Made by a program: the position numbers and the translations under genes. Below the pieces are notes generated by a model. The model was not told where the DNA came from and did not search any database. It saw only the letters and a program-made list of their open reading frames with translations. From NCBI RefSeq assembly GCF_026151205.1, contig NC_087082.1:8502901-8566900 (forward strand): DNA of 64,000 bases, in the 5' to 3' direction. Origin of the DNA: Bolinopsis microptera. Lineage: Eukaryota > Ctenophora > Tentaculata > Lobata > Bolinopsidae. This document shows positions 3,367 to 62,739 of this stretch, piece after piece (positions within the stretch are counted from its first letter, which is position 1; every line of letters begins with the position of its first letter).

Positions 3367-3473
3367 GATATAAAGAGCAATCGTGATATTGATTGGGGAT
3401 ATATACTGATAGCCATTTAGTAATGACCGTCAAAAACTATGGAGGTACTGGGAGGCGAGTTAGCGGTAGTCAT
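3367..3473 (-). pseudogene. Out-of-frame N-terminus and TM1 start of the minus-strand GPCR
   Basis: An ATG at 3473 (minus) opens a short peptide (MTTANSPPSTSIVFDGHY) that looks like a receptor N-terminal tail and then meets a stop. In another frame, from about 3420 down, the sequence YISPINITIALYI runs without a stop straight into the receptor body. A single indel near 3415 would explain both pieces. That is inference; a missed intron would be too short. Confidence 0.45.
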
Positions 3474-3830: not shown

Positions 3831-4948
3831 TCATAAGTGCTAAATTGAAATACAGGAAAGTAACTTGAAAGTATTAGATAATAGATGCTAACCCTCAAAT
3901 TTAACACCCTCAGTTAATAATGCTTGCGACAAATCGACTTCTGAATCACTTCAGGGTGTCTTGTTATTATTTGTAGCTACAGTCATCAATCCTTGGAAGT
4001 TCACGAACACACTGTAACGCAGTAATGATAGACTAATCGACGATGCTAGCTAAATATTTCAGGGTAAATGTTCTATCCGAAGCCGATTGGTCATGCAGTA
4101 ATAAACATAAGACATGTTGCATAACTGATGACCACCAAGCGAGTCCTAAACAATTAATAATCTTAACTATATGAACATAATTATTGTATAAGGTGTAATA
4201 GATAAGAGTATATTTTAGGGGTTTTGAGAACGTTTAGAATACTGTGAGACCATAAATAAAACTATCGTATATTATGAAAATCAGCCATCTTTGATTTTCC
4301 CGTCCGTGTCACAGGTCCAGGCAAAATTTCCTGCGGAATCCATCACAATTGATAATATATCTTGCCTAGAATCCCTCTTTCCTGGAACTAAGTTGAACTG
4401 AAATATTTCGATTGTTTTGACTACTGATATAATATCCACGACAGTATACTGTATGCGACATTATGATAATTTGATCTTAAAAACGTCGAATTTAGAAGGC
4501 TAAAAGTGGATAAACGCTCTAGTCATTATTCTGGTTTAACCGTGCACTAGGCTTGTCATATAAAGGCCATTGTCTTGATTGAATAAATAATAAGGGGTTT
4601 GCAAAGGTTTACAGACAATAGTACCAAGTACAAACAGTATGTATTTATCGCGAATACTCGACCATTTGAAACATATCAATGAGTTGTGTGCCATTCTTAA
4701 GAATCAATATTCTTAGAATCAAGATTCAATCGAGAGTGAAAAGTTTCATCTCTTTAGATTCAAGTGTTGTCTATTTCTGTTATTGGCTAAGGTTAGGTTT
4801 GGAACGTTATGACTAGTTACGACAAGTTAATTTTATATGCGACTATTAACACAGGTCAACTGGTACATTGCATGGTTGCTTAGTTATGAAGTAATTAATG
4901 CATGAATACCAATGCTTACCTTATTAACGACACAATATTACCTTTATT
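3831..4948. other. Non-coding, nothing recognised
   Basis: AT-rich sequence with short, unsupported reading frames only. No repeat, splice pattern or protein similarity was recognised. Confidence 0.5.
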
Positions 4949-5568
4949 GGGGGATGGAGGGGTGAAGGGGATGGAGGGGGTGGATGGGGTGGAGGGGGAG
5001 GAGGGGGTGGAGGGGGTGGAGGGGGTTGAGGGGGTGAAGGGGGTGGAGGGGGTGGAGGGGTGGAGGGGGTGGAGGGGTGGAGGGGATGGAGGGGTGGATG
5101 GGGTGGAGGGTGTGGATGGGGTGGAGGGGGTGGAGGGGGTGGAGGGGATGGAGGGGTGGATGGGGTGGAAGGGGTGGAGGGGGTGGATGGGGTGGAGGGG
5201 TGGATGGGGTGGAGGGGGTGGAAGGGGTGGAGGGGGTGGAGGGGGTGGAGGGGGTGGAGGGGTGGAGGGGGTGGAGGGGGTGGAGGGGGTGGAGGGGGTG
5301 GAGGGGGTGGAGGGGTGGAGGGGGTGGAGGGGGTGGAGGGGGTGGAGGGGGTGGAGGGGGTGGAGGGGGTGGAGGGAGTGGAGGGGGTGGAGGGGGTGGA
5401 GGGGTGGAGGGAGTGGAGGGGGTGGAGGGGGTGGAGGGGGTGGAGGGGTGGAGGGGGTGGAGGGGTGGAGGGGTGGAGGGGGTGGAGGGGATAGGGGGAT
5501 GGAGGGGTGGATGGGGTGGAGGGGGTTGAGGGGGTGGAGGGGGTGGAGGGGGTGGAAGGGGTGGAGGG
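4949..5568 (+). repeat. G-rich minisatellite (ggggtgga)n, strand-asymmetric
   Basis: About 620 bp of 8-9 bp units of the form gggggtgga, with variants carrying gaa, gat or a shorter G run. The plus strand has almost no C. Every frame is open for long distances on both strands (Gly/Trp/Glu-rich or Pro/His/Ser-rich), which is an effect of the repeat and not evidence of a gene. Runs of 4-5 G at short spacing make G-quadruplex formation likely. Confidence 0.9.
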
Positions 5569-5888
5569 TCAGACATAGACAAAAATGGCTAACGTAACAT
5601 GACGTGACTAATCCCTTACCAACGATATGATTTATACTTTCAATACCAATATATAACAGATGTTTTGAATATGCACTATGACGTTAAGTATGACGTTAAG
5701 TTGTAAGTTTTAACGTAACTTCTTCTTATCAAGTAACATTTTGTCCTTACTCGGGTCGATCAGAAAACATTGTGTTCAACACAATATCATTCGAGACTCA
5801 ATAACTGTGCACAATTTCATCACATTATTATGATTAAGTTTTTAATGTCATGTTGTGAGTCTAGTACCACATGTTTTGTGAGTACTAG

Positions 5889-10540: not shown

Positions 10541-11041
10541 ATGGCTATTACATGACTATTATGTGGCTATTATATGGACAACACATTCCTGTAGAAAACC
10601 GCTTGTCGCAAATTTTTCCCAGACATTGTGCACATAATTCCGTAACTATAAGTCAGAAAACCTCAAAGGTCGCGTAACACATGAAACTTTAGCAGTTTAG
10701 CAAGTTTATAATATGAGATGGTAATGACATTATTGAGTTAACATGCTTATAATGGGTGTATGAGATTTAGATATCAACTTTCGATCAATTTCTCATTACA
10801 TCATATAAGCGTCTTGTTACATTATGTTGATCAGTTTCAGAGTTTTAAATGGTCTGAACTTCCCGGTTTTTGTCACCAGCCATTAGTTGGTAACTCATCT
10901 TACTCCCTGGCTCCGATTTTTAGCTGTTTTGAATTCGAAAATGCTACTCATCACTTCCGATTAATATAATTTTCGAGCTGTACCTTTTAACTTCCAAATG
11001 TGTCACACTAAAATAAAGGTGTTCAGCTGAACAGGATTAGA

Positions 11042-12304
11042 ATGAACGCAACGCAGAAGTACAACCCCCACGTTATAATGGACGAGATGGACTTATCTGG
11101 TGGACCCGCGGCAGACAAACTCCTGGGAGTTCTCCTCCTCCTGTTTGGACTTATTGGTACCCCTGGAAACATTCTAGCTTTAAGATACTTCCACTCCACT
11201 GGAAGGAAGGACTTGTCAGCTGTGTTGTATATGATAAACTGTTTTTGTGATTTTTTGATTAGTTTGGGGCATTACCCGGCAACAATAGCACTTCTTAGGG
11301 GTCGAATCCCAGGAATTTTCAATAATCTTATCTTTTGTGGTTTTTGGAATGTTGTTTTCTTTTTCTTGCAGAAATTCACCATTTTCACGGTCATGCTGCT
11401 GAGTGTATCAAGGACTGTTGCCATCGTACTACCATTCTACAAAGTCAACAAGTTCTGGGCATTGTTGAGTCTAGGGAGCTATGCAATAATGTTGCTAGTA
11501 ATAGAGATAACAGGAGCAATCTTCAAAGCAAGGTTTATCTACCTTTCCGTGGGACCATTCTGTCTCCTCCAGCCTGATGCAGATATATTGGAAAGAGTCA
11601 CGATCAGGTTGGTCCTGCTCGTCGCAGTCCCTTCAATCATCACCTTCATAAGCTTCGTCGTCTCAGTCATTCGACTTACTTGTCAGGATAAAATAAGAGG
11701 AGCTCAAAACCAGAAGAAGGAGGCATCCAACACAATCGCTATCTTCACAGGTTGTTTCATCTTCTGCAACATGCCCTACTGCATCATGCTTACCCTGGAG
11801 AATGTTAGAGTCCATTCTCATCTACCATACCCTGGACCGTACTTAAAGAACAGGGTGATGTTCTGGTACGCATGGCCAGTGTCCTGTGTGGCGTTCATCG
11901 TGCTCAATTCTGCCATCAACCCCGTCCTATACTACATGAGAATGACTGGTTTCAAGAAATGGAGCAAGGAGGGGAGGAAAAGCATATTAAAGCTTCAATC
12001 AACATCGTCCAGCATCGTTGCCACATTTATCACCGTAAAGGAGCGTGATAGTCGCCATGGTCGCCATAGCATGAACACTATCGACAGAAGCGCTATCTCT
12101 AGCCAGCCGAGCCAGGAAACCTTGGTCAGTGGCGACAGGATACCCAGGTCTAACAAGCGGAGATGGCACAGCACAGGAATTATCGATAGGACCAAGTTGA
12201 AAAGTAAACAGGAGAGCTCGAGCAATATCGACTCAATCAGCATGCGAAACAATCGAGAAGAAAACAGTGTGAGCAACATCGTCAAAAACAGAGTCGCCCA
12301 GTAG
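11042..12304 (+). CDS. Intact intronless class A (rhodopsin-like) orphan GPCR
   Basis: 420 residues, seven predicted helices. TM1 carries the conserved Asn (LIGTPGNILALRYF); TM3 starts near a Cys (LIFCGFW) that can pair with the Cys of extracellular loop 2 (VGPFCLLQP). The TM3 end is SVSRTVAIVLPF, so the DRY motif is SRT: Arg kept, acidic residue and Tyr lost. TM7 has the canonical NSAINPVLYY. TM6 has FIFCNMPYC in place of the usual CWxP. The tail of about 100 residues is Ser/Arg-rich with many possible kinase sites. The start is the first ATG, giving a short extracellular tail with an Asn-glycosylation site (NAT). Function: plasma-membrane G-protein-coupled receptor, ligand not predictable. 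Confidence 0.9.
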   Translation: MNATQKYNPHVIMDEMDLSGGPAADKLLGVLLLLFGLIGTPGNILALRYFHSTGRKDLSAVLYMINCFCDFLISLGHYPATIALLRGRIPGIFNNLIFCGFWNVVFFFLQKFTIFTVMLLSVSRTVAIVLPFYKVNKFWALLSLGSYAIMLLVIEITGAIFKARFIYLSVGPFCLLQPDADILERVTIRLVLLVAVPSIITFISFVVSVIRLTCQDKIRGAQNQKKEASNTIAIFTGCFIFCNMPYCIMLTLENVRVHSHLPYPGPYLKNRVMFWYAWPVSCVAFIVLNSAINPVLYYMRMTGFKKWSKEGRKSILKLQSTSSSIVATFITVKERDSRHGRHSMNTIDRSAISSQPSQETLVSGDRIPRSNKRRWHSTGIIDRTKLKSKQESSSNIDSISMRNNREENSVSNIVKNRVAQ

Positions 12305-22663: not shown

Positions 22664-25600
22664 TTTCGAAAAACGGAGCAAGCTTTTCGATCACAGGTTC
22701 ACAAGAAATCACTTGATGAAGCTGTTAAAGAGATCAAGAACAATTTGGTCAAAGAAGAAGGACTGAATTGGCCGATTTCAGATTCCCGAAAGACGAAACT
22801 AACTGGTAAATAAATATCTGTAATTTTTAAGATTTGTATTTAATACTCTTCAAAACTTTACGGAATCCAGCAATTATAACGTATAAGAATCGAATAAACT
22901 ATTTCCCCGTCTGTAAAATCTGACGGGAAACCCATCACGGTAATGCACAGTGAACTGTTCTATATGTAGTCAGTCTGAGCTGAGCCTTAAAAGCTCTCCT
23001 TTTCCCACTGATCTGTCCGGGCAAATGTAGCTACTGTAGTCGCCCTCTGTTTTGCGTTGACGTTTAGCTTTTGTCAGCACCTGAGATGCCGTATCAGTTC
23101 TATTCAACGAAAGCTGAAGCTGAATAGTTCTTGATGTGTTGGCTCTCTTTAAACAAACTCTACAATTATCACGTAGTGCAGTTTTCTCGTTAATCTCGGC
23201 GAGAAGTTTGACAACCTTGTCTTCTAACTGCTCATCGTCGGATTCACTTATTCCATAGATAACTGTCGTCATTTTCAGCTATTGTCTCGACTGCAGCTCA
23301 ATACAGATCTTTTTTGGCATAAGAGCAGCTGCACAAGTTTTCTTTAGGACAGAAGAATATTTTTTATCTCTTCTCTGTCATTTGTGTATAGTCCATAGTA
23401 CAGTTTATGTATACAGATTACAGGCTACACAACGATCACACTAAAGCACTAAAAGACGAGCAGTTCTTACAGCAGCTGATAACAGATCTCGCTAATTGAA
23501 ATAAAATTAAAAAACGACTACACGCTAATTATGACTGAAAATCAAGAAATTAAAAAGTCGTATTATAATCATACATCTTAAACATATAATAACAAAACAG
23601 CATTTTATTATCATAAGTACATTTTGCAGGCTTACAAAATCATATGAACTAAAATAGCACACATTTGTCTGGTACTTTTTTGACCTAAGTTGATTTAATC
23701 AGGTAATAAACTCGGCGTGGCGTTTTCCCACGGTCAAGTAGAGTTCGAGGACGCTCCCTTCGTTAAAAGCAGACAGTGCTTTCTGAGGTGCCCCCATGGT
23801 GTCTCAAACAAAAAGAAACCTATAAATGTTGGTTATAAGTTAATTTTTAAAATCTTTCTTTTGTTAATTCTTTTCTTATGTTACCAGTCGGCAGTCCTAT
23901 ATTTTATCATGAAAGTTTCTGGGATGACTAAATTAAACACTGCTTAATATAAGTATATCTTAATAGTGGTGTTCTTTAACTTCAATTTATTATTATTACT
24001 AAGCTTAGAAGTTACGGCGCTGTTCTGAACTTTAAGTAGTCCGATCTCATATAACATTTTATTTCAGGATAAGGGAAAGCAGCGGATTAGAAAGCTAACC
24101 ATCAAAGCTACGAAGTGTGAGGCAGAGATACGTCTGTATGAATATAGAGTTTATACAATTAACCGGGTAATAATTTCTTTACTGATCTGTAAAAACAACA
24201 CACTTATTTGTTAGATACGTGCTATTTGATCTTATGTAGTAGTAGAAGTAATATTAATAAACCCGTGATGGGGAGTACATCGAGAGTATACTACATCAAT
24301 TTATATATCGAAAATATCAATAGCGACAAGAGAAACGCCATTGTTTGACGTGAGGAGAGTGAGGGCTCCTCAAACTACATTAATTTAATTCCTCCTGTAA
24401 CGTCCTCAATAATAATAATAAATTTGCAGTTTATATTAGTATCAAGGCGGTAGAATTCCAAGAATTTTATTAGCACGCACTGCGCACGTAATTGAGTAAA
24501 TATTTGTGCAGATTAGCTTAAGCGTGGCAGTGAAAATTAAAAGATGGCAGTGACTGACTAATAGATGCTTTATCGCAGTTCATTTTATTTGATGGCAATA
24601 TTGTTTGGACTTAACTCGAACAGATGGTATAGTTTCTTTGTAATTCTGTTACGAGCTGTAGAGAACGACGTTTTTTTCAGCGGCAAGTTTTTGTTTATCG
24701 AGTAAATAATAAATATCGTTGTTCCTAAACGAATTAATGAACTTATCCTGTAACTTTAAAGGGAAGGATTTTATTTATTTCGTTCTGAATCCTAATAATC
24801 GTTACCTTAAATATGAGAGAGGCTATAATCGTTAATCGTTATCAAGATAATGAGTTTGATTACGTGTCTGCCATCTGCGAAAAAAACACATATATTGGGA
24901 TATATCTCTTACATTTGCAAGATCGTTTATGTAATCAATAGTCAATAACTAGACAATAATAATGAACAACATCGGACCAAGAATGGCCTGGATGACACGT
25001 AGTCAAGCAAACATTAACGATTTTAAATCAAATAGTGGACGAAGACACTACAAGACAGTAGAATAATAGGGGTGTGTATAAGCAAGAAGATGGCTCGCAG
25101 GAGGTTGAACTACCGCTTCCCGCCGGCATGTCATCCGTGACGTCATCCCACACGGCTTGAAGTGGTGTGACGTCATCTCACGTGGTGTAACGTGGTGCAA
25201 TGCATCCTCAAATCCTGTCACATGATGTGACATCATCTCACGTGGTGTGACGTGGTTCATCTCACGTGGTATGTCATCACCTCACATACTGTCACGTGAT
25301 GTGATCTCATCTCACGTGGTTACTGCTCTCTTGCTTGCACCAGGGGGATAAATCATACCACGTGGTGTGACCCATCTCACGTGCTGTCTCATCACCTCAC
25401 ACACTGCCACATGGAGTGGTCTCATCTCACGTGGTATAGTGTCATCTCACATCATGACTCATGGCTTAACCCAGGTCATGTGACCCACACAGTTATCCTA
25501 TCATTATACCTTAACGTATACAGCCTGTCACGTGATTAGTCACATGATACCAGACATGTCCTAATATGGAATAATTCTAGTCTTATCGTCAATGTGCCTG

Positions 25601-28600
25601 GATCTTGTTTCAGTGCAAACACATTCAGCTTGACACGTGATTACATCAAATATTTGAATGTGATATAAGACTGCTATAACCCTTCAGATGTGCTGCAACC
25701 CCTATCTAACCACATAATTGCATCAATTATTATAATGTTATATAATGCTGCTTGTACCCTTCAAATGTGTTTTAATTTTATCTAGTCACGTGATTACATC
25801 AATTATTAGAATGAGATTAAGACTGCTTTAACCCTTCAGATGTGCTTTGACTGTATCTAGTCACGTGATTATATTTGTGTAATGCGAACTAGCAGGATTA
25901 GGTACCATATCCCTCCATATGACACACCAGTGTAGCATGAATCTGCTTCTTACTCCCCTCATATATATTTAAACCATGCATCTAGTCTCATAATTACATC
26001 AATTATACTAGGCTATATATTATTTTGTTTGTATCTAATTTTGTAATGTCACCCTCCGCCCCGGAGGGGCGGAGGGTGAGGGTGACTACTGATTTCCCCG
26101 GGGCAATTCACAAAGAATCATTTGATTAATGCTGATTGTGTGGTGGTCACTTTGAGCAAGCAAATCCATGTCTGAAAAATTGCATGTAATGTAGGAGTGT
26201 TATTCAATATATGAGGCTGACGTAGAGTGAGAGTACAGCTGTAACAAGACCCAGATTCTGAATTTAGCAGTCTTTACCCAGATGAAGCATCATGTGACTA
26301 ATCACGTGACAAGCTGTATGTATTGGGGTGAAACAACCGACCTTAGCGTGAATAATTAAGTCCGTGAAAATAATATCTGTGACATTAAGGTCCGTGAATA
26401 ATAAAGTGCCCCGGTAATTATTTCCATTAATTTTAGTGTGTGTATCCCTACATAGTACATATGCATAGATATGTGTAATAGCCGATTACTATATTAGTTT
26501 ATAGTAAACTAGGACAAATATAATCACTTTTCAGTCACATTCTAGAGTTCAGAAAAAGAGTAATACACTTATTACAAAATCACCAAAAATGTTCAAAATT
26601 TGTTGGACATTTTTGGGCAGTCGTGAGCGTGAATAATTATGTCCGTGAAAAATTTGATCCGTGAAAAATTTGGTTCGTGACAATTATGTCCGATAGTATA
26701 GATTACATATCACAATGTGATTTGTGACCTCTTGAAAAGGCTGAGTTCTAACCATGACCCCTACAATCTACACAATACATGAAACAAACTCCGTCACTTT
26801 AGACAGGATTTACTTTTCAATACCCAAGAATTATCTAAGAATCGTGATGACATATTTAATATTGGTCATGAAAGTCAATATACAATTTCTTTGAATTATT
26901 CTGGTAAAATGTTAGAAGGAAAAATTAGAAGGAAAATAATGTGCTTTTGAAGTAACTTTTAATATTAACTCCCCTTAAAATTAACATACATAGTTTACAT
27001 AGTCTAATTCATGATCTAATTACCCAAAAAGAAATTTACCCAAGAAAACATTTCAACTATGCGACTCATAAATCCAATCCGGATTTTACATGGGTCACAT
27101 AGTATAATTCGAAATTTACGAAAAATAACAATCCTCTCAGGGTTTTAAGCTTTCGGGGACATAAAATTTCCAAGATTTCCGAGAATTTTCAGTTTTTGCT
27201 TCAACCAGGATCATTGGCCGAATATTCACTTCAATCACCAATCGTCTAATGAAAAAAGGAGGTTTTCTTGGAAATCAAACAATATTCCCGTTGCGAGTCT
27301 TGCAGCAGTTTAAATGAATTATGAAAGTGTCCCTGTCTTAATGTTACTCCTGGTTAAAGAATATCGTTTGTTCCTGTGTCTGTATGAGTATCCTTATCTT
27401 CAGTCAACTAACCATCTGTTTGTATGATAATTGGAACAATCGGGACACAGGACCTGCGTGACTTAGACTAGATACCAGGATGAACGTGTACTCTCACATA
27501 CGTACATGCCCATATTAGGGTATAACGTGCTCCCTCTTCTTAGAAATCGTCATATCTACTCCGAAAGCATGCTTTTAAGATTTAACCCCCGATTGATAAA
27601 TGTGACTAGCCACGCTCTTCTACCACTTTACTAATAATAGCCTTACTCTTTCTGTTGTGGTACCCCTCAAATGTTATGGTACCCATAACATGTGGTAGTA
27701 CTCCTCCAATTTGGGGGTACTCCATCTAGTCGCTGGTTTTAAGCCCACCTTCAAAGTGACAAAGCGAACAAAAGTTATGATAAAATACCACGTACAGGAA
27801 CACCCCGAGGTTTCACCTTCTCGCCCCGAGCAGCCGTACCCATCGCCCCCCCACGGACCGACACGGACATGATTAATTGCTTGAACTTTTCGATACCTGA
27901 CTTTTTTATCTGAGTACTGGTTATGAATGGTAATTCAGAAAGTGATAAATCTCGAAGATGATCTCCGTCTGACTAATTGACATAGAATTTGCGATGATCC
28001 CCTTGTACCATCTGGTGTGACCCTTTAATGTCCCCACTGGGGAGTATTCCTACATGTTGGGTGCAGTGCTCGACAGACTCAAGAGTTACAGCTCCATCTC
28101 CAGGATGGTGCTTGCTAATCAGTGTGAAAATAAATCTATATGTATATGTTTTCACATTCATTCAGAGGCACATATTAGGTGCAGTAAAAAAATCTAAATT
28201 ATGCGGTACCGCACCCGACTATAAAGGTAAAATGTGCGGTAAGGTGCGGTAAATTTTTACCAATTATGCGGACTTTTTCTGAAGGACTTTGGAACTTCTA
28301 AACGTATAACCGCCGCTCTTATCAAAAATAGATCTGTTTAACTTTATGTGTTACTGAGGGTGTAGTTCTTTACTAAGACCATGATTGAACCTATATTGAG
28401 ATTCAGTTATCTGAGAACAGTGACTTGATCTGGTAGAGATCAGGAGATAGTTATTTGAAGATGCCTCTTGATAAAGTCGATCAGATCCCATGCCTGATCG
28501 CAAATATGTGACACGCTTGTTGGCATTGATCGTCAGTACTTGTAATCCATTTGATTCAAGATCCATTAAGCCCACTATAAAGCCAACGCTACAACGAATA

Positions 28601-31600
28601 GAGCTCATTACCCGATAAAAAGGCTGCAGCTATGATCGAAGTACGGTAACGGCGAGGGTTCCATAACGGTCTGGGTCACGGTCCCGAAAGGGCCTGGGTC
28701 AGGGTCCCGAAAGGGCCTGGGTCACGATCCTAAAAGAGCACGACTTTTAAAATATTTTGGTTTTTACACTCGAAAATCTTAACGCGAAAATTTCAAAATT
28801 ATGTGAAATTACGCGGAAAATTCTAGATTATGCGGAAATATGCAGAAAATTACAAAATGTGCGGAAATGTGCGGAAAACAATAAATTATGCGGAAATGTG
28901 CGGAAAACAGTAAATTGTGCGATCCCGCACCCATCGCACCTAATATGTGCCTCTGTAAATCATTAATATCCTGTTTATATCCATTATTGCTTTTATCAAG
29001 TCGTTTACTGAGATGTTTTGGAATTCGTAAATCCAAGGAGAAGTATATGTTTTCACATTCATTAGCTTTGAATTTTTGGGGTAGGTTACCTTCAGTGGAA
29101 AGGAAAGAAATGGATTCACAAAACTTTGAGAGAAAGTGATAAATCTCGAAGATGATCTCCGTCTGACTAATTGACATGATTTGCGATGATCCCCTTGTAC
29201 CATCTGGTATGATTCTTTAATGTCCCCACTGGGAAGTATTCCTACATGTTGGGTGCAGTGCTCGACAGACTCAAGAGTTACAGTTCCATCTCCATGATGG
29301 TGCTTGCTAATCAGTGTGAAAATAAATCTTTGAAAGGATCTTTAATAAGTTGTATGTATAAGTTGGATTATTCCCTCCCTGCTATTATATATGTGATTAT
29401 TTACAATTATATGCGATTATTTGCGAGTATAAACAATAAAATGTGATTTTAAGATATAATATACGTGATTATATACATAAATGAATGCGATTATATGTGA
29501 TTATATGCGATTATATGCTATTATATGCGATTATATGTTATTATATGCTATTATATACTAATGTTATATGCTATTTCGTGCGATTATATGCGATTATATG
29601 CGATTATATGCTATTGTATGTTATTATATACTAATGTTATATGTTATTTCATGCAATTATATGCGATTATATGCGATTATTTGCGATTATATGTGATTAT
29701 TTGCGAGTATAAACATTAAAATGTGATTTTACTAGATATAATATACGTGATTATATACATAAATGAATGTGATTATATGCGATTATATACTATTATATGC
29801 AATTATAGTATCAGTATTGGAAAAACTAGATATTGCTCACAGACGTCATCTGCGATCAATTATGAATTACAAATACCCTCACATCATCTCCAACAAGAAC
29901 TTGTATAAACGCTGCAATAGCGAACCATTGCCAGCTAAAGTGACTCATAGTCGGAGGAGGATGCTCGGACATGTACTGCGTGGGTCTACAGATGGTTCAG
30001 CCTATTCGTCGCTTGTTTTTGCTGTTAACACCTTACAGCTTCAAGGGCGGCGTGGAAGACCGCAGTCAAACCTTTTCTCACTGATTCTACACGACCTTAG
30101 TGTTCGAAAATTATCGTTAAATAATTGTGATTTGAACTATTTAACGTTAATTGCTCAAATAGAGTTAAATGGAGAAGTATGCAAATTGCATGACTTTCGT
30201 TTGAGAAAGATTAGGGGGGCAGAAATGTTTACTTTGTTTACTATCTGTTTCTTAGAGCTTTTGTTTATATATATGGGATTATATGCTATTATATGTTATT
30301 ATAAGCTATTATATACCAATGTAATATGTTATTTCATGCAATTATATGCGATTATTTGCGATTATCGCTATATAATGGCTGTTGCTTAACATTCTAAAAC
30401 GCTTGCACTGCAATCATGAGTTCTGTAACCTGCTCATTCTGTGACAAGTCTTATGCCAATAAATATAGTCTGTATTCACACATTAGTAGGTATCATCGAG
30501 AGAACCGAGAGTCGAATGAAAGTTCTACCATTCTGCAACCACTGTCAAAAGCTAATTCAGATGCAGCTGATGTCAAATTGGATAGTTCTGATTCCATACA
30601 CTCAGATTCTGATACAATTGTATCTGAAGAATCTCAGCAAGGTAGTTCTAACTCTGATGTAGCAGCTAGTGATGATGAGGAATCTCAGCAAGATAGTTCT
30701 AACTCTGATGTATCAGGTAGTGATGATGAGGAATATAGTGATGTAACAAGTAGCGACGATGATTCTAGCAAAGAATATAGTACTGATGAGTTAGAATCTG
30801 ACACTATCTGGCAACATAAAGACAAGCGGAAAGGAGTGGCAATCAAACAATCAATAAACAAAAGGATAAAGATATCGAAATTAGATGTTCGGGGGTTGAG
30901 CACCGGTGAGATTGATGAGTATTTGAGAAACGGAAGCAAGTTTAAAGGTGCATATCCATGCGATCAAATCCCCAATTTTCCGGATAGTGAATATTCCCTC
31001 ATAATTAATACAGATAATTCATCTTTACCTGGCTCACACTGGACTGCTTTGGTAGTAAGAGGAAACAATGCATATTACTTTGATAGCTTTGGACGATTAT
31101 ATAATAATGGTTCATTTCCATCTGAATACATTGAGAATTTAGGTAAAATTTGCTTTGAAAAAAAGATTGTGTTTCAAAATAAAGTTTTGCAGAGTTTTCA
31201 TAGTAATACTTGTGGTGAATTTTGCATTTATTTTATTAAACAGTTTGAGAAAAATGTTACTTTTTCAAGAATATTTCATGATTTTACTGTAAATTTAAAT
31301 TCAAATGATGTCAAGATTATGAAATTGTTCAAGAAATGAATTGTAGTGATTTACTTTTAATTTTTAATAAATTTTTCTGTTTCATTTAGACAAATTCAAC
31401 AACATTTTATGATAAGCAAAATAAACATGTTTTTAAATTATACATTTACAAAAATAAAATTAAAAAATAAAAAATCTGATCTTTCTTAATGGAAAATCCC
31501 TCTCTCCAATCATGCGGTATATCAGCAATCATAGTCAATCTCGCGTTGTAGATCAATATATTCTACAAGTCTTCTTCTTATCCGAATGGCCTTGGCATTC

Positions 31601-32308
31601 AACCACCCCCACTCCTCCTCTGCATCTCGTCTCCGTTCCTCTGCTTCATGTTGCAATATCTCTACCTCGCGTAGCCTTTCGCCAACTTCTTTTAACGCTT
31701 TTTCCTATGAAGATGAATGAAAAAATAAAAAAAATAAAAGTATGATACTAAGATATCACATTAAAAATATGATCAATCATTGAAAAAATATCAGCCCATA
31801 GAAAGTGGAAAGGATGTCTAATGAAAGCTCTGATATGAAGAAAAACAAAACTGTTAAATATAAAACTCACAATTACACTCTCAGCAGCATCAGGATCCAC
31901 AGTGGCGTTCTCATAGTAATCATTAATCGATTGAATATCCTCCTCCTGAAATATAAAAACAGATGGTGTTAAGATAAAACTATTGTTAGGAGTCTATGAA
32001 AGTTCTCAGATAGAAGAAGTTATAAAACAACATGTTTTTTTAAACTTGAATAATGTCACGCCACTGTTAGCAGAATGGCTGTAAAGAATACTAACCTCAC
32101 TATGAGGGGGAGGAGTAGCTCTGTTACCAGAACTGTGTGTTGCGGAGATCGCATGATTATCTGAAGTAACCGTGGAGGGTATGAAGGATGTAGAGCAGGG
32201 CATGGTGGTTACTGGGGTGGGTGGGGCTGAGCTGGGTTGTCGCGCTGACTCCGCATTCATCTCCACACCTTCACAATTCATGTTGCGACTAGAATTTTTG
32301 TGTTAGGC

Positions 32309-32339
<31 letters not shown>

Positions 32340-35300
32340 GATATATAATTGGTGGTTATGCTTATTAAAACACACAAGTTTTTTCATGGATATTTCATGA
32401 TTTTACGGTAAATTTAAATTCGAATGATGTCAAGATTATGAAATTGTTGAAGAAATGAACTGTAGTGATTTACTTTTTATCTTTAATAAATTTTTCGGTT
32501 TCATTTAAACACATAAAAATAAAAATAAAAAATAAATGGAATGAAATAGAATAAAATGTCGTTTATAAAAAAATTAAATAAAAAAAAATTAAACAGTTTC
32601 TTTTTTGTTTCTGCAAATGATCCGTGCCCCCTGAAAAAAATAAAAATTTAATGATGAGTAAAATACAGAATCGCGACTATCAGAGGTTAACTTTAAGTAA
32701 ATGAGAGAGGTTAAGTTTTTCGATGTTTAAACTTACTGCTATTTCTCTATACAGGAGGCTGTGCTCCTCGGGGATGAGTAGTAACATCCATTCGCAATAG
32801 CAAACATGTACTATTTCCTCTCTTATCCGTACCGGGAAACGGTTGGCTCCGCAATTGATGACTATACCGCAGTTATCCATGATACTAATTGGCTGATAGA
32901 TGATAAGATACAAAATTAAGAAAGTGTAACCAAAATGAAAAATTTATATGGAGTATGACGCTCTGCAACAAAAGTACATTCTTCCTAGATCAAGAGCATC
33001 TTGAGATTTGTTCATGTGGAGTGTGACACAACATGGTAAAGTAGTAAAAGTACATTCTCCCTAGATCTATAACACCTTGAGATTTACTCATATGGAGTGT
33101 GACACACCACAGCAAAAGTGCATTCTTCCTAGATCAAGAGCATCGTGAGAAGCATGTTAAGGAGTGATGAGCATTCCTTCGCTCTTGAGAAGAAGTCATC
33201 AAGTTAAACAATAAAATGCATAAGAGTACCAGCTATCATCTGAAAGCAAAAAATCATCGATGTGCTAACTACTGGTTATGAATGCTAAATCAGAAAGTGA
33301 TGAATCTCGAGGATAATCTCTGTCCAACTAGATGATATTTTCAATGACCCCTATTCACTCCTCTGGGGTAATCTATTAATGCACCTCCCTACTGAGAAAT
33401 ATTCATACATGTTGGATGCAGTGCTCGACAGACTCAAGAGTTATAGATCCTTCTCCAGAATGATGTATGTTAAACAGCATGGAGATAGACCTTTGGAGGG
33501 GGGGTCTTTAATAGGTAATAATTTGCAATTATAGGGTGGTTTAAACAGCAGAAAAGCTTAGAGTTCATTTTTTAAATTTCTATCGAAACAAAGAAAACAA
33601 GTCAATATGAAACCATGAAGTTACTTGATAGCCCCATTCACTGGTTTTTATACTACAATCAATTAGATTGTCATTGAAATATGAGTCTACTTCTCCAAAA
33701 GCTCGCTCAATTCAATTATTTCTCAAGCAGACAGATTGCAAGCTGTAACGTGTTTTTGATAAGATATCTTCATATCAGATGTTAATTTTGGTACCAAGGC
33801 ATGATGGGTTATCTTGATTAACAGTATACAATCTCCCCATGGCATGACTTTGAAATTCCACTGTTATCTGACAACTGACAATTATCAGCTGTTTAACGCC
33901 TTAGTCAGCTTATGATACATCACAAGACAGGCTGTGGACGTGTTGCTTTGAAACAGGATATTTCTTCAAGCAGTAAACTGCAACGTGTTTTTGATATGAA
34001 ATCTGTATATTAGTTGATAATTTTATCTGCACCAAGGCATGCCATGGTATCTTGACTACCAACACATAACCTCCTCATGGTGTGACTTTGAAATTCCACT
34101 GTCATCTTGCAACTGACAATTATCAGCTGTTTACCACCTTAGTCAACTCATGATACAACACAGATTATTTGCATACATGATCAGTTATACGTGATTATAT
34201 AAGATTATATGTGATTTATATACGTGAGTAAATGCAATTATCTCTGATTGTGTGTAATTATATGCGATTATATGGGATTATTTGCATGTATATGAACAAT
34301 TATACGTGAGTATATGGGATTATATATTATGATTTATGTATGTGAGTGAATGCGATAATCTGAGATTATGTATAATTACATGCGATTATATAGTATATAT
34401 GCGATTATGTGTGATCGCAGGGTATAATACATGACAAGTTTAACCAACCATCAATGTCGGTGCAGTTGAAGACCTCAAAGTTTTGTGAATCCATTTCTTT
34501 CCTTTCCACTGAAGGTAACCTACCCCAAAAATTCAAAGCTAATGAATGTGAAAACATATACTTCTCCTTGGATTTACGAATTCCAAAACATCTCAGTAAA
34601 CGACTTGATAAAAGCAATAATGGATATAAACAGGATATTAATGATTTACAGAGGCACATATTAGGTGCGATGGGTGCGGGATCGCACAATTTACTGTTTT
34701 CCACACATTTCCGCATAATTTATTGTTTTCCGCACATTTCCGCACATTTTGTAATTTTCTGCATATTTCCGCATAATCTAGAATTTTCCGCGTAATTTCA
34801 CATAATTTTGAAATTTTCGCGTTAAGATTTTCGAGTGTAAAAACCAAAATATTTTAAAAGTCGTGCTCTTTTAGGATCGTGACCCAGGCCCTTTCGGGAC
34901 CCTGACCCAGGCCCTTTCGGGACCGTGACCCAGACCGTTATGGAACCCTCGCCGTTACCGTACTTCGATCATAGCTGCAGCCTTTTTATCGGGTAATGAG
35001 CTCTATTCGTTGTAGCGTTGGCTTTATAGTGGGCTTAATGGATCTTGAATCAAATGGATTACAAGTACTGACGATCAATGCCAACAAGCGTGTCACATAT
35101 TTGCGATCAGGCATGGGATCTGATCGACTTTATCAAGAGGCATCTTCAAATAACTATCTCCTGATCTCTACCAGATCAAGTCACTGTTCTCAGATAACTG
35201 AATCTCAATATAGGTTCAATCATGGTCTTAGTAAAGAACTACACCCTCAGTAACACATAAAGTTAAACAGATCTATTTTTGATAAGAGCGGCGGTTATAC

Positions 35301-38300
35301 GTTTAGAAGTTCCAAAGTCCTTCAGAAAAAGTCCGCATAATTGGTAAAAATTTACCGCACCTTACCGCACATTTTACCTTTATAGTCGGGTGCGGTACCG
35401 CATAATTTAGATTTTTTTACTGCACCTAATATGTGCCTCTGAATGAATGTGAAAACATATACATATAGATTTATTTTCACACTGATTAGCAAGCACCATC
35501 CTGGAGATGGAGCTGTAACTCTTGAGTCTGTCGAGCACTGCACCCAACATGTAGGAATACTCCCCAGTGGGGACATTAAAGGGTCACACCAGATGGTACA
35601 AGGGGATCATCGCAAATTCTATGTCAATTAGTCAGATGGAGATCATCTTCGAGATTTATCACTTTCTCTCAAAGTTTTGTGAATCCATTTCTTTCCTTTC
35701 CACTGAAGGTAACCTACCCCAAAAATTCAAAGCTAATGAATGTGAAAACATATACTTCTCCTTGGATTTACGAATTCCAAAACATCTCAGTAAACGACTT
35801 GATAAAAGCAATAATGGATATAAACAGGATATTAATGATTTACAGAGGCACATATTAGGTGCGATGGGTGCGGGATCGCACAATTTACTGTTTTCCGCAC
35901 ATTTCCGCATAATTTATTGTTTTCCGCACATTTCCGCACATTTTGTAATTTTCTGCATATTTCCGCATAATCTAGAATTTTCCGCGTAATTTCACATAAT
36001 TTTGAAATTTTCGCGTTAAGATTTTCGAGTGTAAAAACCAAAATATTTTAAAAGTCGTGCTCTTTTAGGATCGTGACCCAGGCCCTTTCGGGACCCTGAC
36101 CCAGGCCCTTTCGGGACCGTGACCCAGACCGTTATGGAACCCTCGCCGTTACCGTACTTCGATCATAGCTGCAGCCTTTTTATCGGGTAATGAGCTCTAT
36201 TCGTTGTAGCGTTGGCTTTATAGTGGGCTTAATGGATCTTGAATCAAATGGATTACAAGTACTGACGATCAATGCCAACAAGCGTGTCACATATTTGCGA
36301 TCAGGCATGGGATCTGATCGACTTTATCAAGAGGCATCTTCAAATAACTATCTCCTGATCTCTACCAGATCAAGTCACTGTTCTCAGATAACTGAATCTC
36401 AATATAGGTTCAATCATGGTCTTAGTAAAGAACTACACCCTCAGTAACACATAAAGTTAAACAGATCTATTTTTGATAAGAGCGGCGGTTATACGTTTAG
36501 AAGTTCCAAAGTCCTTCAGAAAAAGTCCGCATAATTGGTAAAAATTTACCGCACCTTACCGCACATTTTACCTTTATAGTCGGGTGCGGTACCGCATAAT
36601 TTAGATTTTTTTACTGCACCTAATATGTGCCTCTGAATGAATGTGAAAACATATACATATAGATTTATTTTCACACTGATTAGCAAGCACCATCCTGGAG
36701 ATGGAGCTGTAACTCTTGAGTCTGTCGAGCACTGCACCCAACATGTAGGAATACTCCCCAGTGGGGACATTAAAGGGTCACACCAGATGGTACAAGGGGA
36801 TCATCGCAAATTCTATGTCAATTAGTCAGACGGAGATCATCTTCGAGATTTATCACTTTCTGAATTACCATTCATAACCAGTACTCAGATAAAAAAGTCA
36901 GGTATCGAAAAGTTCAAGCAATTAATCATGTCCGTGTCGGTCCGTGGGGGGGCGATGGGTACGGCTGCTCGGGGCGAGAAGGTGAAACCTCGGGGTGTTC
37001 CTGTACGTGGTATTTTATCATAACTTTTGTTCGCTTTGTCACTTTGAAGGTGGGCTTAAAACCAGCGACTAGATGGAGTACCCCCAAATTGGAGGAGTAC
37101 TACCACATGTTATGGGTACCATAACATTTGAGGGGTACCACAACAGAAAGAGTAAGGCTATTATTAGTAAAGTGGTAGAAGAGCGTGGCTAGTCACATTT
37201 ATCAATCGGGGGTTAAATCTTAAAAGCATGCTTTCGGAGTAGATATGACGATTTCTAAGAAGAGGGAGCACGTTATACCCTAATATGGGCATGTACGTAT
37301 GTGAGAGTACACGTTCATCCTGGTATCTAGTCTAAGTCACGCAGGTCCTGTGTCCCGATTGTTCCAATTATCATACAAACAGATGGTTAGTTGACTGAAG
37401 ATAAGGATACTCATACAGACACAGGAACAAACGATATTCTTTAACCAGGAGTAACATTAAGACAGGGACACTTTCATAATTCATTTAAACTGCTGCAAGA
37501 CTCGCAACGGGAATATTGTTTGATTTCCAAGAAAACCTCCTTTTTTCATTAGACGATTGGTGATTGAAGTGAATATTCGGCCAATGATCCTGGTTGAAGC
37601 AAAAACTGAAAATTCTCGGAAATCTTGGAAATTTTATGTCCCCGAAAGCTTAAAACCCTGAGAGGATTGTTATTTTTCGTAAATTTCGAATTATACTATG
37701 TGACCCATGTAAAATCCGGATTGGATTTATGAGTCGCATAGTTGAAATGTTTTCTTGGGTAAATTTCTTTTTGGGTAATTAGATCATGAATTAGACTATG
37801 TAAACTATGTATGTTAATTTTAAGGGGAGTTAATATTAAAAGTTACTTCAAAAGCACATTATTTTCCTTCTAATTTTTCCTTCTAACATTTTACCAGAAT
37901 AATTCAAAGAAATTGTATATTGACTTTCATGACCAATATTAAATATGTCATCACGATTCTTAGATAATTCTTGGGTATTGAAAAGTAAATCCTGTCTAAA
38001 GTGACGGAGTTTGTTTCATGTATTGTGTAGATTGTAGGGGTCATGGTTAGAACTCAGCCTTTTCAAGAGGTCACAAATCACATTGTGATATGTAATCTAT
38101 ACTATCGGACATAATTGTCACGAACCAAATTTTTCACGGATCAAATTTTTCACGGACATAATTATTCACGCTCACGACTGCCCAAAAATGTCCAACAAAT
38201 TTTGAACATTTTTGGTGATTTTGTAATAAGTGTATTACTCTTTTTCTGAACTCTAGAATGTGACTGAAAAGTGATTATATTTGTCCTAGTTTACTATAAA

Positions 38301-41300
38301 CTAATATAGTAATCGGCTATTACACATATCTATGCATATGTACTATGTAGGGATACACACTAAAATTAATGGAAATAATTACCGGGGCACTTTATTATTC
38401 ACGGACCTTAATGTCACAGATATTATTTTCACGGACTTAATTATTCACGCTAAGGTCGGTTGTTTCACCCCAATACATACAGCTTGTCACGTGATTAGTC
38501 ACATGATGCTTCATCTGGGTAAAGACTGCTAAATTCAGAATCTGGGTCTTGTTACAGCTGTACTCTCACTCTACGTCAGCCTCATATATTGAATAACACT
38601 CCTACATTACATGCAATTTTTCAGACATGGATTTGCTTGCTCAAAGTGACCACCACACAATCAGCATTAATCAAATGATTCTTTGTGAATTGCCCCGGGG
38701 AAATCAGTAGTCACCCTCACCCTCCGCCCCTCCGGGGCGGAGGGTGACATTACAAAATTAGATACAAACAAAATAATATATAGCCTAGTATAATTGATGT
38801 AATTATGAGACTAGATGCATGGTTTAAATATATATGAGGGGAGTAAGAAGCAGATTCATGCTACACTGGTGTGTCATATGGAGGGATATGGTACCTAATC
38901 CTGCTAGTTCGCATTACACAAATATAATCACGTGACTAGATACAGTCAAAGCACATCTGAAGGGTTAAAGCAGTCTTAATCTCATTCTAATAATTGATGT
39001 AATCACGTGACTAGATAAAATTAAAACACATTTGAAGGGTACAAGCAGCATTATATAACATTATAATAATTGATGCAATTATGTGGTTAGATAGGGGTTG
39101 CAGCACATCTGAAGGGTTATAGCAGTCTTATATCACATTCAAATATTTGATGTAATCACGTGTCAAGCTGAATGTGTTTGCACTGAAACAAGATCCAGGC
39201 ACATTGACGATAAGACTAGAATTATTCCATATTAGGACATGTCTGGCATCATGTGAGTAATCACGTGACAGGCTGTATACGTTAAGGTATAATGATAGGA
39301 TAACTGTGTGGGTCACATGACCTGGGTCAAGCCATGAGTCATGATGTGAGATGACACTATACCACGTGAGATGAGACCACTCCATGTGGCAGTGTGTGAG
39401 GTGATGAGACAGCACGTGAGATGAGTCACACCACGTGGTATGATTTATCCCCCTGGTGCAAGCAAGAGAGCAGTAACCACGTGAGATGAGATCACATCAC
39501 GTGACAGTATGTGAGGTGATGACATACCACGTGAGATGAACCACGTCACACCACGTGAGATGATGTCACATCATGTGACAGGATTTGAGGATGCATTGCA
39601 CCACGTTACACCACGTGAGATGACGTCACACCACTTCAAGCCGTGTGGGATGACGTCACGGATGACATGCCGGCGGGAAGCGGTAGTTCAACCTCCTGCG
39701 AGCCATCTTCTTGCTTATACACACCCCTATTATTCTACTCAAGACGTATTATATGATTATAATAGTAGACCAATTTTAATTTTAAATTTAAACCAAAGAA
39801 ATGTGCAAATTTCGAGAGAATGGAACGCAGACATGCCCATAGTCATTTCTACGTAACTTACAATAATTGTAATAATAATAACACTTTACCAGGTTCCTAA
39901 AGGAGCTACCAGGGCGCAGAGAGCGGATGCAATAGCAGCAGTGAGGGAAAGTGCTGAAGACACATCCGAATTTGAGCTTCACACTGTGGTTTACCAAACA
40001 TGCAGAAACCACAACCACAAAATTGTTCCACAACGGAACGCTATATCATCTGGTTTGTTCTGTCACAAACACTATTATACTATATACCTCTTTCTACCTC
40101 CTTCCTACGTCCATTACTTCAAGCTTCCGGCCTCCAATTGTTTGTGCATCCTAAGGCTTACTATCACAACAATCTGTTTAACTTACCCCTTCTTTTTATT
40201 GATAGCATATCTATTATTAAATGAATTGATAATTATTTTACTGCAATTGTTGTTACTATGATTTATAAAAGAGTTGTCCTTACATTTCAAAATTGCAGAG
40301 GACACAGAATTCCTTACAAAAATAACCAGCATCGGAGTAGTAGGAGACTCGACCCTGACTGCTCAGATGAATTACCAGGCTCAGTTAGGAGCAACAAGTT
40401 CGGTTATCTCCTCCTTTGATGTGCAAACTGTTGCCAACAAAAGACGAAAGATTCAACACAGGAAACGTAAGTTCTGTTTAATTACATCTCCGTGCCGGGT
40501 GGGCGACAGTTAACCCCCGAAAAATGACCCCCCGACAATTGACCCCCGAAAAATGACCCCCCGACAATCTAATCCAATACAATTAACCATAACCCTAACC
40601 CAGTATAACCCTAACCCAGTATAACCCTTACCCAGTATAACCCTAACCCAGTATAACCCTTACCCAGTATAACCATAACCCAGTATAACCATAACGCAGT
40701 ATAACCCTTACCCAGTAACCCTAACCCAGTATAAACCTAACCCAGTAACCCTAACCCAGTATAACCCTAACCCAGTATAACCCTTACCCAGTAACCCTAA
40801 CCCAGTATTACCCTTACCCAGTAACCCTAACCCAGTATAAACCTAACCCAGTAACCCTAACCCAGTATAACCCTTACCCAGTAACCCTAACCCAGTATAA
40901 ACCTAACCCAGTAACCCTAACCCAGTATAAGTATCCCTAACCCATTAACCCTAACCCAGTAACCCTAACCCAGTAACCCTAACCCAGTAACCCTAACCCA
41001 GTATAACCCTAACCCAGTATAAACCTAACCCAGTAACCCTAACCCAGTAACCCTAAACCCAGTAACCCTAACCCAGTAACCCTAACCCAGTAACCCTAAC
41101 CCAGTATAACCCTTACCCAGTAACCCTAACCCAGTAACCCTAACCCAGTAACCCTAACCCTAACCCGATCAATTGACTCAGTGTACATGGGGGGGGGTCA
41201 ATTATTGTCGAGGGGTCAATTCTCGTACTGAGCCCTAGATTTTGCGACAATTGACCCCAGTGTACTTATATTGCATTATAGGGGGCCAATTGTCGGGGGT

Positions 41301-60400: not shown

Positions 60401-60570
60401 TAACTAGCCTTAAATATACTGGTGATTCCTGCTAAGCTTAACGTGATCACTGATAAATTTATGTTACTCATCTCACTGCCGCCTAGCTTGTTTCAGGTTT
60501 ACTGGTCTGGTTCGATGGGTCTGACCCTGGCCCCCTCCGCTCACCCCTGTACTCCGCATCCATTATCATC

Positions 60571-62739
60571 ATGAAAAAGACCGACAAGAAACTCGACAGG
60601 AGATCGGACCTCTTTAATTCCACGTCTCGAGGGTGCAAGTCAGCTGGATCCACCCCTATTTCGAGCCCAGCTTTAAGCCGAAAAGTCACTAGCAGAATAC
60701 ATAATAGGAACACAGAGCCAGATGCAGATCTAACATCTGATGGAGACTTTGTAGATGTAGAGAGCAACGAACCAGCATCGATCCCAGGAACGCTACTCTC
60801 TAAGTGTCCCTGCTTTGTAGAGTCAAAGAACCCTGCAATCTTATGTGTTACTTGTAAGCAGACCTTCCATTCTAACTGTGTTAACCTTGCTGGCCTCACA
60901 GCAACTTCTCTAAAGAAGCTCAGCACTTCCTGGAAGTGCCCGGACTGCTTTATCTTTCCTTACACAAGAAGATTGAAGGAGGAGGAAAAATCCAAAGCGT
61001 TAACAGAATTCTTTAGCAATATTTCTAAGATATCAAAGTGTAATGAGGAACTCAAAGAAAGTACAACAACCATAGAGTTCTTCAACGAGCATATCAAACA
61101 CCTCATACTCAAGGATCAGGACAGTTTCAAAGAACACTCCAAAAGAACAGAACGATTAGTGACTGGAATTGAAGATATCACTGAAGACATAGCTTCTATC
61201 AAGGGTGTACTTACGAAAGTAAAGGAGAGTGGCTCAGCTCTTGAGACAACCAGCAACTCTCTCAAACAGGAGATTGATGGCCTGAAGGACTCTCTCAAAA
61301 ATATACCTATGACAGAGCAACCTCCGACTAACAGCAGTACTTTCGATCATGTTGACAACCTGATGACCCAGATCAAAGTGCAATTGGAAAAGATCAATGA
61401 TCATGTATGTCCCTCAACGTCCACACAGAACTTTGATGAAGGTGAACTACCTTACAATGAATCTATCCTTATGACCCCTAACACTACTTCTCCTCACTTT
61501 GCTGCATCTCAAATTCCTGAAGGCCCTGCATGTGACCCTTATCTAACTTATCAGGAAGATATAGTGCCTGTTGAGCTTCACAGCAAACTTATAAAGCTGC
61601 TGGAGGACAATAGTGCGGATTTTTCTTCGGTTGGTGGCAGCAGGGATGTTGTCTACTTTGGTGAACATGGATACTGGTACACAGGAGCCTATCATCAGGC
61701 AAAGGAAACTCCACCGGAGATACAAGATCTTTTGGACTGTGTGCGTCCCTCTCTCCCCAATAGGAAGAGCTGGCTGAACTCTTGCCTTGTTACAAGATAT
61801 ACAGGCAATAGTAGCCATATCCCCCAACACTGCGACAATGAGGTTCTTATTGACCCAGAATCGATAATAGTCACTGTGTCCCTTGGTGAAGAACGCACAA
61901 TAAAGTTCACACATAAGTCGACTGAAAAGTCCTTAAAGCTCAAAGATGGAAGTGTATACGTGATGTCCAGAATGTCCCAGGAAATCTGGAATCATGGTAT
62001 TGAACCCCTCGCTAATGAAGAAGATGGCGAGGAATCTGAAGAGAAAACTTCTGTGAGGTACAGCTTTACCTTTAGGCATATTGCGCCTTTCTACAAAAAT
62101 AGCACAGTGTTAATTGGAGACTCAAACACTAAGTACATTAAATTTGGTAAAGATGTTGGAACTCTAGGAAAATGGGTTCCCGGTAAGCGAATGTGGGCTG
62201 CTAAAATCGACGATATTCCTGCTCCCAAAGACATAGGCCCCTTTCGGAACATTGTTATACATACGGGAATCAATGATATTCGAGATGATTCCAACAGACC
62301 ATCCACTAGAACACTTATTGCTAAGCTTAAGAAGAAATGTTGTGAAATTCAGCAATTTTATCCTAATAGTAAAGTTCATATTAGTTTACTCTTGCCCACC
62401 AAATCACAGTTTGTTAACTCACGTATAGGGGAGTTAAACAGTTTAATTGTCGACATGGTTTATAATAGGAAAAACATGTTTATTATAGATAACTCTGTAC
62501 TAGGTTCTGTTAACGGATGTATGCCCTCTAAGTATGGTAGATTCTCACGTGATGGCACACCATTGGTCAATGATGTTGTTCATCTCGGGAGAGAAGGCCT
62601 GAAAATATTTTGTATGAACATAAAACGGTGTATTGTACAACGTGGTGGAAGTCAGTCCACGGAAAGATTTAAAGGTGGAAATGGTGACTATAGGAGTGCC
62701 CTAAGTAGGGGTAGTAGGGGTGATATCTTACCGATATGA
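60571..62739 (+). CDS. Retrotransposon ORF1: PHD finger + AlkB-like dioxygenase + SGNH esterase
   Basis: 722 residues. PHD-type zinc finger at 79-126 (Cys79, 81, 92, 95, His100, Cys103, 123, 126; first pair CPC). Coiled-coil region about 135-280. AlkB-like Fe(II)/2-oxoglutarate dioxygenase at about 330-505: the HxD pair in HIPQHCDNE (His420, Asp422), the distal His475 in IWNHGIEPL, and RYSFTFR (Arg496-Arg502), the RxxxTxR signature. SGNH/GDSL hydrolase at about 512-690: Ser518 in LIGDSNTKYI, Gly566-Asn568 in IHTGINDIR and Asp668/His671 in NDVVHLG. AlkB enzymes remove alkyl groups from nucleic acid; esterase domains are known in CR1/L2 ORF1. The second could act on lipid or protein partners. 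The stop overlaps the ORF2 start (ATGA). All catalytic motifs look intact. The AlkB part is the uncommon one. Confidence 0.88.
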   Translation: MKKTDKKLDRRSDLFNSTSRGCKSAGSTPISSPALSRKVTSRIHNRNTEPDADLTSDGDFVDVESNEPASIPGTLLSKCPCFVESKNPAILCVTCKQTFHSNCVNLAGLTATSLKKLSTSWKCPDCFIFPYTRRLKEEEKSKALTEFFSNISKISKCNEELKESTTTIEFFNEHIKHLILKDQDSFKEHSKRTERLVTGIEDITEDIASIKGVLTKVKESGSALETTSNSLKQEIDGLKDSLKNIPMTEQPPTNSSTFDHVDNLMTQIKVQLEKINDHVCPSTSTQNFDEGELPYNESILMTPNTTSPHFAASQIPEGPACDPYLTYQEDIVPVELHSKLIKLLEDNSADFSSVGGSRDVVYFGEHGYWYTGAYHQAKETPPEIQDLLDCVRPSLPNRKSWLNSCLVTRYTGNSSHIPQHCDNEVLIDPESIIVTVSLGEERTIKFTHKSTEKSLKLKDGSVYVMSRMSQEIWNHGIEPLANEEDGEESEEKTSVRYSFTFRHIAPFYKNSTVLIGDSNTKYIKFGKDVGTLGKWVPGKRMWAAKIDDIPAPKDIGPFRNIVIHTGINDIRDDSNRPSTRTLIAKLKKKCCEIQQFYPNSKVHISLLLPTKSQFVNSRIGELNSLIVDMVYNRKNMFIIDNSVLGSVNGCMPSKYGRFSRDGTPLVNDVVHLGREGLKIFCMNIKRCIVQRGGSQSTERFKGGNGDYRSALSRGSRGDILPI

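Follow-up and report, generated by a model that had tools for sequence, protein, structure and literature searches.

How does a transposable element come to consist mostly of its own ends? The question is raised by a 64,000-bp stretch of the genome of the ctenophore Bolinopsis microptera (NC_087082.1, 8,502,901–8,566,900; hereafter the window, meaning the whole stretch of DNA that was analysed), in which positions 25057–39739 (G000:C11:8527957–8542639) form a 14,683-bp element with the ends of a Polinton (Maverick), a virus-like transposon. A sequence-only reading had described a compact Polinton with little more than a protease between its 4.3-kb repeats, and had proposed either a non-autonomous class that keeps the protease or a deletion derivative whose arms grew by conversion. 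Our analysis presents the element as a Polinton derivative that is mosaic and non-autonomous and belongs with other Polinton-type elements, many of them palindromes. The best explanation (probability roughly 0.6) is that truncated protein-primed linear genomes were turned by snap-back copying into inverted dimers that were mobilised in trans.

Ends and arms of the element and its copies

In window coordinates, the element is delimited and built as follows.

25051–25056: left target-site duplication, CAAGAC, 6 bp
25057–29329, plus strand: left arm, a terminal inverted repeat (TIR) of 4273 bp
33270–33477, plus strand: older copy of an arm segment within the centre, 78–79% identity
34474–35667, minus strand: extra arm unit of 1194 bp, a tandem copy of 35668–36861 (2 of 1194 positions differ)
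35467–39739, minus strand: right arm, 99.6% identical to the left arm
39740–39745: right target-site duplication, CAAGAC, 6 bp, an exact match to the left

The left arm starts at 25057 with the tip AGTAGAATAATAGG, whose reverse complement stands at 39739, so that the AGT...ACT ends and the CAAGAC duplication reported previously hold exactly on both sides; judged by tips and duplication, the element is Polinton-derived. Alignment of the arms (25057–29329 against 39739–35467) spans 4275 columns, 16 of which differ (12 substitutions and 4 gap columns), mostly in two clusters at 25372–25549 and 29161–29295. Together the arms account for 8546 of the 14,683 bp (58%), bearing out the claim that more than half of the element is TIR. 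The centre (29330–35466) does have the claimed length of 6.1 kb (6137 bp), but as delimited it takes in part of the extra arm unit. By its own gene content the element falls outside the published Polinton definition, because neither polB nor a capsid-like gene was found in it; Polintons are there given as 15–20 kb long and all encoding polB and integrase (PMC4642659; similarly PMC4028283).

When the first 344 bp of the element were searched as DNA against the 264.65-Mb assembly, both ends of at least five elements were recovered, the window element included; counts in this search are lower bounds. These same-termini copies, which the sequence-only reading had proposed to look for, range from 3.8 to 14.7 kb and vary in gene content.

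C1:7846793–7850563: copy of 3,771 bp; target-site duplication AGCTGA; arms of 914 bp at 100%, the remainder also arm sequence
C2:16220367–16229394: copy of 9,028 bp; target-site duplication ACAGTA/ACAATA (5/6 match)
C7:17082598–17096137: copy of 13,540 bp; target-site duplication TATATC; arms of 1138 bp at 99.6%, tip AGTAGAATAGTAAG
C12:1926555–1941066: copy of 14,512 bp; target-site duplication GACTTC

Since at least five copies share its tips, the window element is not a one-off; instead of full-length relatives with no other short copies, the genome holds short copies of 3.77 and 9.03 kb. Mirror symmetry in the C2 copy extends as far as the centre, with 3 mismatches in 4234 bp, and the central 560 bp are self-complementary at 99.6%; the copy therefore has no spacer. 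In the C12 copy, a 4.4-kb stretch (L012:1487–5924) that encodes endonuclease and reverse transcriptase domains interrupts one of the arms. The C7 copy carries a row of frames of 182, 183, 204, 122 and 449 aa followed by a 155-aa protease, with polB remnants on the opposite strand; in the C2, C12 and C7 copies polB was found as fragments only. The protease gene (PRO) is present in the window, C12 and C7 copies and absent from the C1 and C2 copies (two of the five), for which reason we reject the idea of a class that keeps it.

Palindromes among related elements

Across the 15 elements that we delimited, lengths run from 3.8 to 15.3 kb, and several are mostly arm, with only one or two recognised gene types. 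All 15 begin with AGTAG, giving AGT...ACT ends, and 13 have exact 6-bp duplications, the C2 copy matching at 5 of 6 bases. Arms within single copies are 96–100% alike, whereas the flanks are unrelated in all 15 (ungapped reverse-complement identity 0.21–0.30 over 178–200 bp). An exact copy of the element's own 10-base tip was not found in the central stretches of the eight palindromes checked, the best having 2 or 3 mismatches.

Zinc-finger relatives were reached through the open reading frame (ORF) that encodes the window protease, which as a query (window 30413–31336) gave 134 matches in its own genome. Residues 1–153 of this ORF match a separate gene, mostly in frames of 235–262 aa, which reads from a C2H2 zinc finger through an acidic stretch to a C-terminal domain not present in the window ORF. 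With 38 protease-only rows, 7 second-piece rows and 2 chimeras excluded, the zinc-finger set comprises 87 places, 15 of them unpaired. All 36 adjacent pairs no more than 10 kb apart are inverted (31 outward-facing, 5 inward-facing, none on the same strand); the two members of one inward pair, C11:8111016/8115952, differ in identity (57% and 92%) and perhaps do not belong to a single element. The five pairs that were read (C6, C21, C2, C4 and C13) all have inverted arms. The C6 pair has unclean ends and the C21 arms extend past the sequence read; the other three are as follows.

C2 zinc-finger palindrome: 5.9 kb; arms of about 2.55 kb at 99.9%; target-site duplication CGTAGG
C4 zinc-finger palindrome: 6,675 bp; no clear spacer; target-site duplication ACACGG
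C13 zinc-finger palindrome: 6,783 bp; arms of 2838 bp at 100%, spacer of 1107 bp; target-site duplication GAAGAT

The C4 element gives a single end-to-end self-alignment at 98.0%, with 35 mismatches and 100 gap positions. Separately, an inverted zinc-finger pair at G000:C11:19577727–19584473 lies about 4 kb from a polB match.

A genome profile search with PF03175 returned 20 polB matches, eight of which form four inverted pairs, two a same-strand pair, and ten stand singly. The polB elements are as follows.

C7:6690411–6705670: 15,260 bp; exact duplication; outer 4.18 kb of the arms 99.9% identical
C9:6594451–6608817: spacer of 259 bp; exact duplication
C9:662254–674315: spacer of 303 bp; exact duplication
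C8:6275905–6289861: spacer of about 1.6 kb, inward polB broken by stops; exact duplication
C13:13624197–13632401: arms of about 2.2 kb
C3:11680502–11688675: 8.2 kb; arms of 531 bp at 97%, one polB
C5:13157518–13167203: 9.7 kb; arms of about 440 bp at 96%, one polB

The centre of the C7 polB element, of which only the outer arms and centre were read, is self-complementary over 2666 bp at 98.9%. The point at which the sequence turns round varies among relatives: the 259-bp spacer of C9:6594451 is found in both arms of the C7 polB element, and arm sequence of C9:6594451 makes up the 303-bp spacer of C9:662254. Ends, duplications, arm symmetry and this variety of junctions are direct observations.

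Open frames of at least 1184 residues occur in 11 of the 20 polB loci (within the pieces read), and the ratio of nonsynonymous to synonymous substitution rates (dN/dS) is 0.044 between two polB families (at a saturated dS of 2.6) and 0.17 within one. With these long frames and the ratio of 0.044, the genome has a polymerase that might act in trans. The 1184–1192-residue ORFs match patterns for the exonuclease and for polymerase motifs A and B, the pattern used for motif C being unmatched. In a Pfam scan of ten Polinton ORFs, Endonuclease_7 fell just under the cut-off for two polB ORFs, for which the scan listed no DNA_pol_B_2 (E 0.01), although the genome family search put their loci above its cut-off; a PDB search with one polB returned only a weak Endonuclease VII match.

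Capsid-type loci were surveyed with an ORF of the C7 copy that, on its place in the gene order, we take to be a capsid gene. Pfam gives no match for it, and a scan of viral contigs with it found no relative. In the genome its matches number 62 and fall into 36 places, when those within 15 kb are clustered and its own place is counted; one inverted capsid and protease pair was seen among them (G000:C9:8585060–8592588); the capsid match closest to a PF03175 polB match is 411 kb distant. At C1:8053725 a polB piece, 50% identical to a C11 polB, is convergent with capsid and protease genes, as in most vertebrate Mavericks (PMC8097293). Fuller Polintons therefore exist in the genome, with a polB missing from the matches of the PF03175 family search. 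Near a capsid and protease locus, L061:2782–3345 is a frame with a NERD nuclease-related domain (22.4 bits, cut-off 22.1).

A chimeric protease gene in a mosaic element

The coding features and remnants of the window element are these.

27873–27918, minus strand: polB-like scrap in the left arm, 34 bp at 97% to the polB of the C3 element; as protein alone the match is insignificant (E 0.44)
30398–31339, plus strand: ORF of 313 aa in which a C2H2 zinc finger and acidic region run in frame into a complete adenain-like cysteine protease domain
31261–31392, plus strand: 3' end of the protease gene, with a 92% copy at 32380–32511
31524–32283, minus strand: putative three-exon small gene with readable GT/AG borders
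32380–32511, plus strand: duplicated 3' end of the protease gene
36880–36925, plus strand: right-arm counterpart of the polB-like scrap

The adenain-like protease that the sequence-only reading placed in the centre is there; the second small spliced gene of that reading was inspected by eye. Its statement that the centre lacks polB also stands: when the longest ORFs of the 20 polB loci, one per locus, served as tblastn queries, the best match in the window (E 0.44) lay in the arms. Among the seven window frames run against Pfam no rve integrase match was seen, and the capsid-like ORF of the C7 copy has no match within the element.

The ORF scores below both Peptidase_C5 (17.2 bits, cut-off 21.3) and Peptidase_C48 (17.2 bits, cut-off 20.7), and we assign it to the adenovirus-type maturation proteases through its 89% identity to the protease domain of the C7 copy, which passes Peptidase_C5 (22.8 bits). 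A weak PDB match was to the cysteine protease S273R (E 0.052), a PHROGs search gave nothing useful (best E 0.041), and an AlphaFold model of the domain alone was unusable (mean predicted local distance difference test, pLDDT, 37.6).

From about residue 154 onward the ORF matches proteases, mostly in frames of 150–187 aa, the identity being 89% to C7, 83% to C5:23590159, 66% to C1:8055026 and C7:16169122, and 29–42% to the remainder. At the fusion point, the C7 protease starts with MSDVRGLG, whereas the window ORF runs from the zinc-finger protein into KLDVRGLS; the C12 copy carries the entire chimera at 98% identity. The C-terminal domain of the zinc-finger gene resembles an ORF of the C3 polB element and, by eye, an ORF beside a capsid and protease locus (L061:700–1071), and the gene for this reason looks like a Polinton gene. 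On these alignments the window ORF is a chimera between the N-terminus of a Polinton-type gene from another lineage and a complete adenain-like protease. For the protease codons dN/dS is 0.09 between window and C7, against 0.37–0.45 for the zinc-finger genes; between window and C12 it is 0.24 at a dS of 0.02, too few changes to infer selection after loss of the other genes.

The arms are composite as well. A 583-bp polB fragment, 89–90% identical to the C3 element, occurs in each arm of the C2 copy and in one C12 arm, the other keeping 292 bp of it; the window lacks the fragment, as the flanking arm blocks (25057–25976 and 26032–26338) are nearly adjacent, and a polB scrap of only 34–37 bp is left elsewhere in its arms. 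Window 29131–29681 and the zinc-finger part are 85–87% identical to the C6 palindrome, and the tips and protease belong to the C7 lineage. Mosaicism and chimera are observed as such; that at least three lineages contributed we infer from these identities.

Proposed snap-back copying and its rivals

Polintons would replicate extrachromosomally as linear DNA, with protein-primed polB starting at the end repeats. Truncation, or fold-back of the new strand (snap-back), would leave a molecule with a single end repeat, and copying round the hairpin would give an inverted dimer with an identical end repeat at both termini. Having regained end repeats on both sides, the dimer could replicate and integrate again with a 6-bp duplication, and palindromisation would be an end-rescue route for such linear replicons. 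In the window copy, later deletions, template switches between lineages and local duplications may have led to the 4.27-kb arms, the extra arm unit and the fused-gene centre; snap-back would explain the arms, the present centre needing subsequent recombination and duplication. Extrachromosomal snap-back, mobilisation in trans and the order of these later steps are what we infer. Mirror symmetry supports snap-back in the C2 copy through its centre, in the centre of the C7 polB element (2.7 kb read) and along the full length of the C4 element, and Maverick end motifs are expected to permit the jumping-back step of protein-primed replication (PMC8097293).

Several observations weigh against this explanation. 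The window element itself is symmetric in its arms only, without mirror symmetry through its centre; fewer than half of the polB matches (8/20) are in inverted pairs, one adjacent pair is same-strand (C6:15345187/15349766), and most capsid-type loci stand unpaired. Of the 36 zinc-finger pairs only five were read, three with clean ends, and no duplication is visible at the C5 polB element (1 of 15). The varying turn-round points fit snap-back on separate occasions but also older palindromes that lost central sequence asymmetrically. All data come from one assembly, in which no extrachromosomal form was seen.

Target duplications and unrelated flanks bound the palindromes, so either the inverted dimer was the inserting unit or palindromes formed later at many sites. 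The latter, with arms growing after insertion by gene conversion or break-induced copying of one arm into the loop, is the best surviving rival, and we consider it unlikely. Conversion, which the sequence-only reading had offered as one option, would likewise give the arm likeness within single copies, and agrees with the clustered differences between the window arms and with junctions that vary among related copies. It fits less well with palindromic units bounded by duplications and unrelated flanks; moreover, elements that differ in tips and target sites are symmetric right through the middle, and the 36 inverted zinc-finger pairs would demand far-running conversion at almost every site.

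A one-off internal deletion of a full-length Polinton would be in keeping with the capsid-like genes and same kind of tips in the C7 copy, and with the convergent polB piece at the related capsid and protease locus. We reject it as improbable: the short C1 and C2 copies carry the same tips, simple deletion leaves unexplained window arms nearly four times the length of the C7 copy's, and the protease ORF is a chimera of different lineages. Long reads are known to yield perfect palindromes artefactually, as inverted duplicates, yet a foldback in sequencing or assembly is highly improbable and also rejected: symmetry ends at the AGTAG tips and the window arms differ at 16 columns. Because exact duplications occur in 13 of 15 elements and flanks are unrelated in all 15, the delimited palindromes are not assembly foldbacks and were most likely inserted as palindromes. 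Least probable of all, and rejected, are two head-to-head insertions at one place, which would account for two polB or zinc-finger genes per locus but for neither the tip-free centres of the eight palindromes checked nor the single duplication round the whole.

Intact vertebrate Mavericks span 12.7–24.6 kb, with TIRs of 46–1447 bp (mean 402); eight genes are conserved in them, or seven in the case of one frog (PMC8097293). Like Polintons, the elements described here have AGT...ACT ends, 6-bp duplications, a polB whose Endonuclease VII-like region scores just under the Pfam cut-off, a capsid-like gene with a protease after it and, at one locus, a convergent polB piece; unlike intact vertebrate Mavericks, the 15 elements are 3.8–15.3 kb, several being arm-dominated with no more than one or two types of gene recognised.

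Adenovirus and other protein-primed linear replicons form symmetric defective genomes, inverted dimers made by snap-back copying. As in those of adenovirus, one original end stands at both termini, although adenoviral forms are free or packaged DNA and ours sit in chromosomes between target duplications. Non-autonomous miniature and foldback elements share the inverted repeats, incomplete coding capacity and mobilisation in trans; they differ from the present elements, which have Polinton-type tips and 6-bp duplications and, in several cases, open polB or zinc-finger genes in both arms.

To our knowledge, protein-primed linear replication of Polintons has so far been inferred from genes alone, and integrated palindromes flanked by exact duplications of the target would amount to its fossil record, spacer-less inverted dimers being predicted by snap-back copying and not by cut-and-paste transposition. 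They would also show defective-interfering-like forms of a virus-like transposon spreading in the germ line, polB, capsid and regulator genes living on separate elements, and a way for long near-perfect palindromes to arise in a genome. Among the titles listed by a literature search, none was on palindromic Polintons; prior publication is possible.

Tentatively, these elements may form a divided system, with three kinds of separate unit, each having Polinton-type tips and 6-bp duplications: capsid and protease elements, polB elements without recognised capsid or protease, and zinc-finger-only palindromes. Palindromes made by snap-back would be what defective-interfering genomes look like once integrated; they would be the commonest form of the zinc-finger units and a frequent one of the polB units. 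Lineages would swap modules during shared replication, as in the zinc-finger::protease chimera.

Elsewhere in the window, 60487–62739 holds a 750-aa frame with a PHD-finger-like start, by eye perhaps a retroelement ORF1, 4899–5683 is a long low-complexity repeat with overlapping open frames on both strands, and frames at 2368–3429 and 11012–12304 resemble, by eye, seven-helix receptors.

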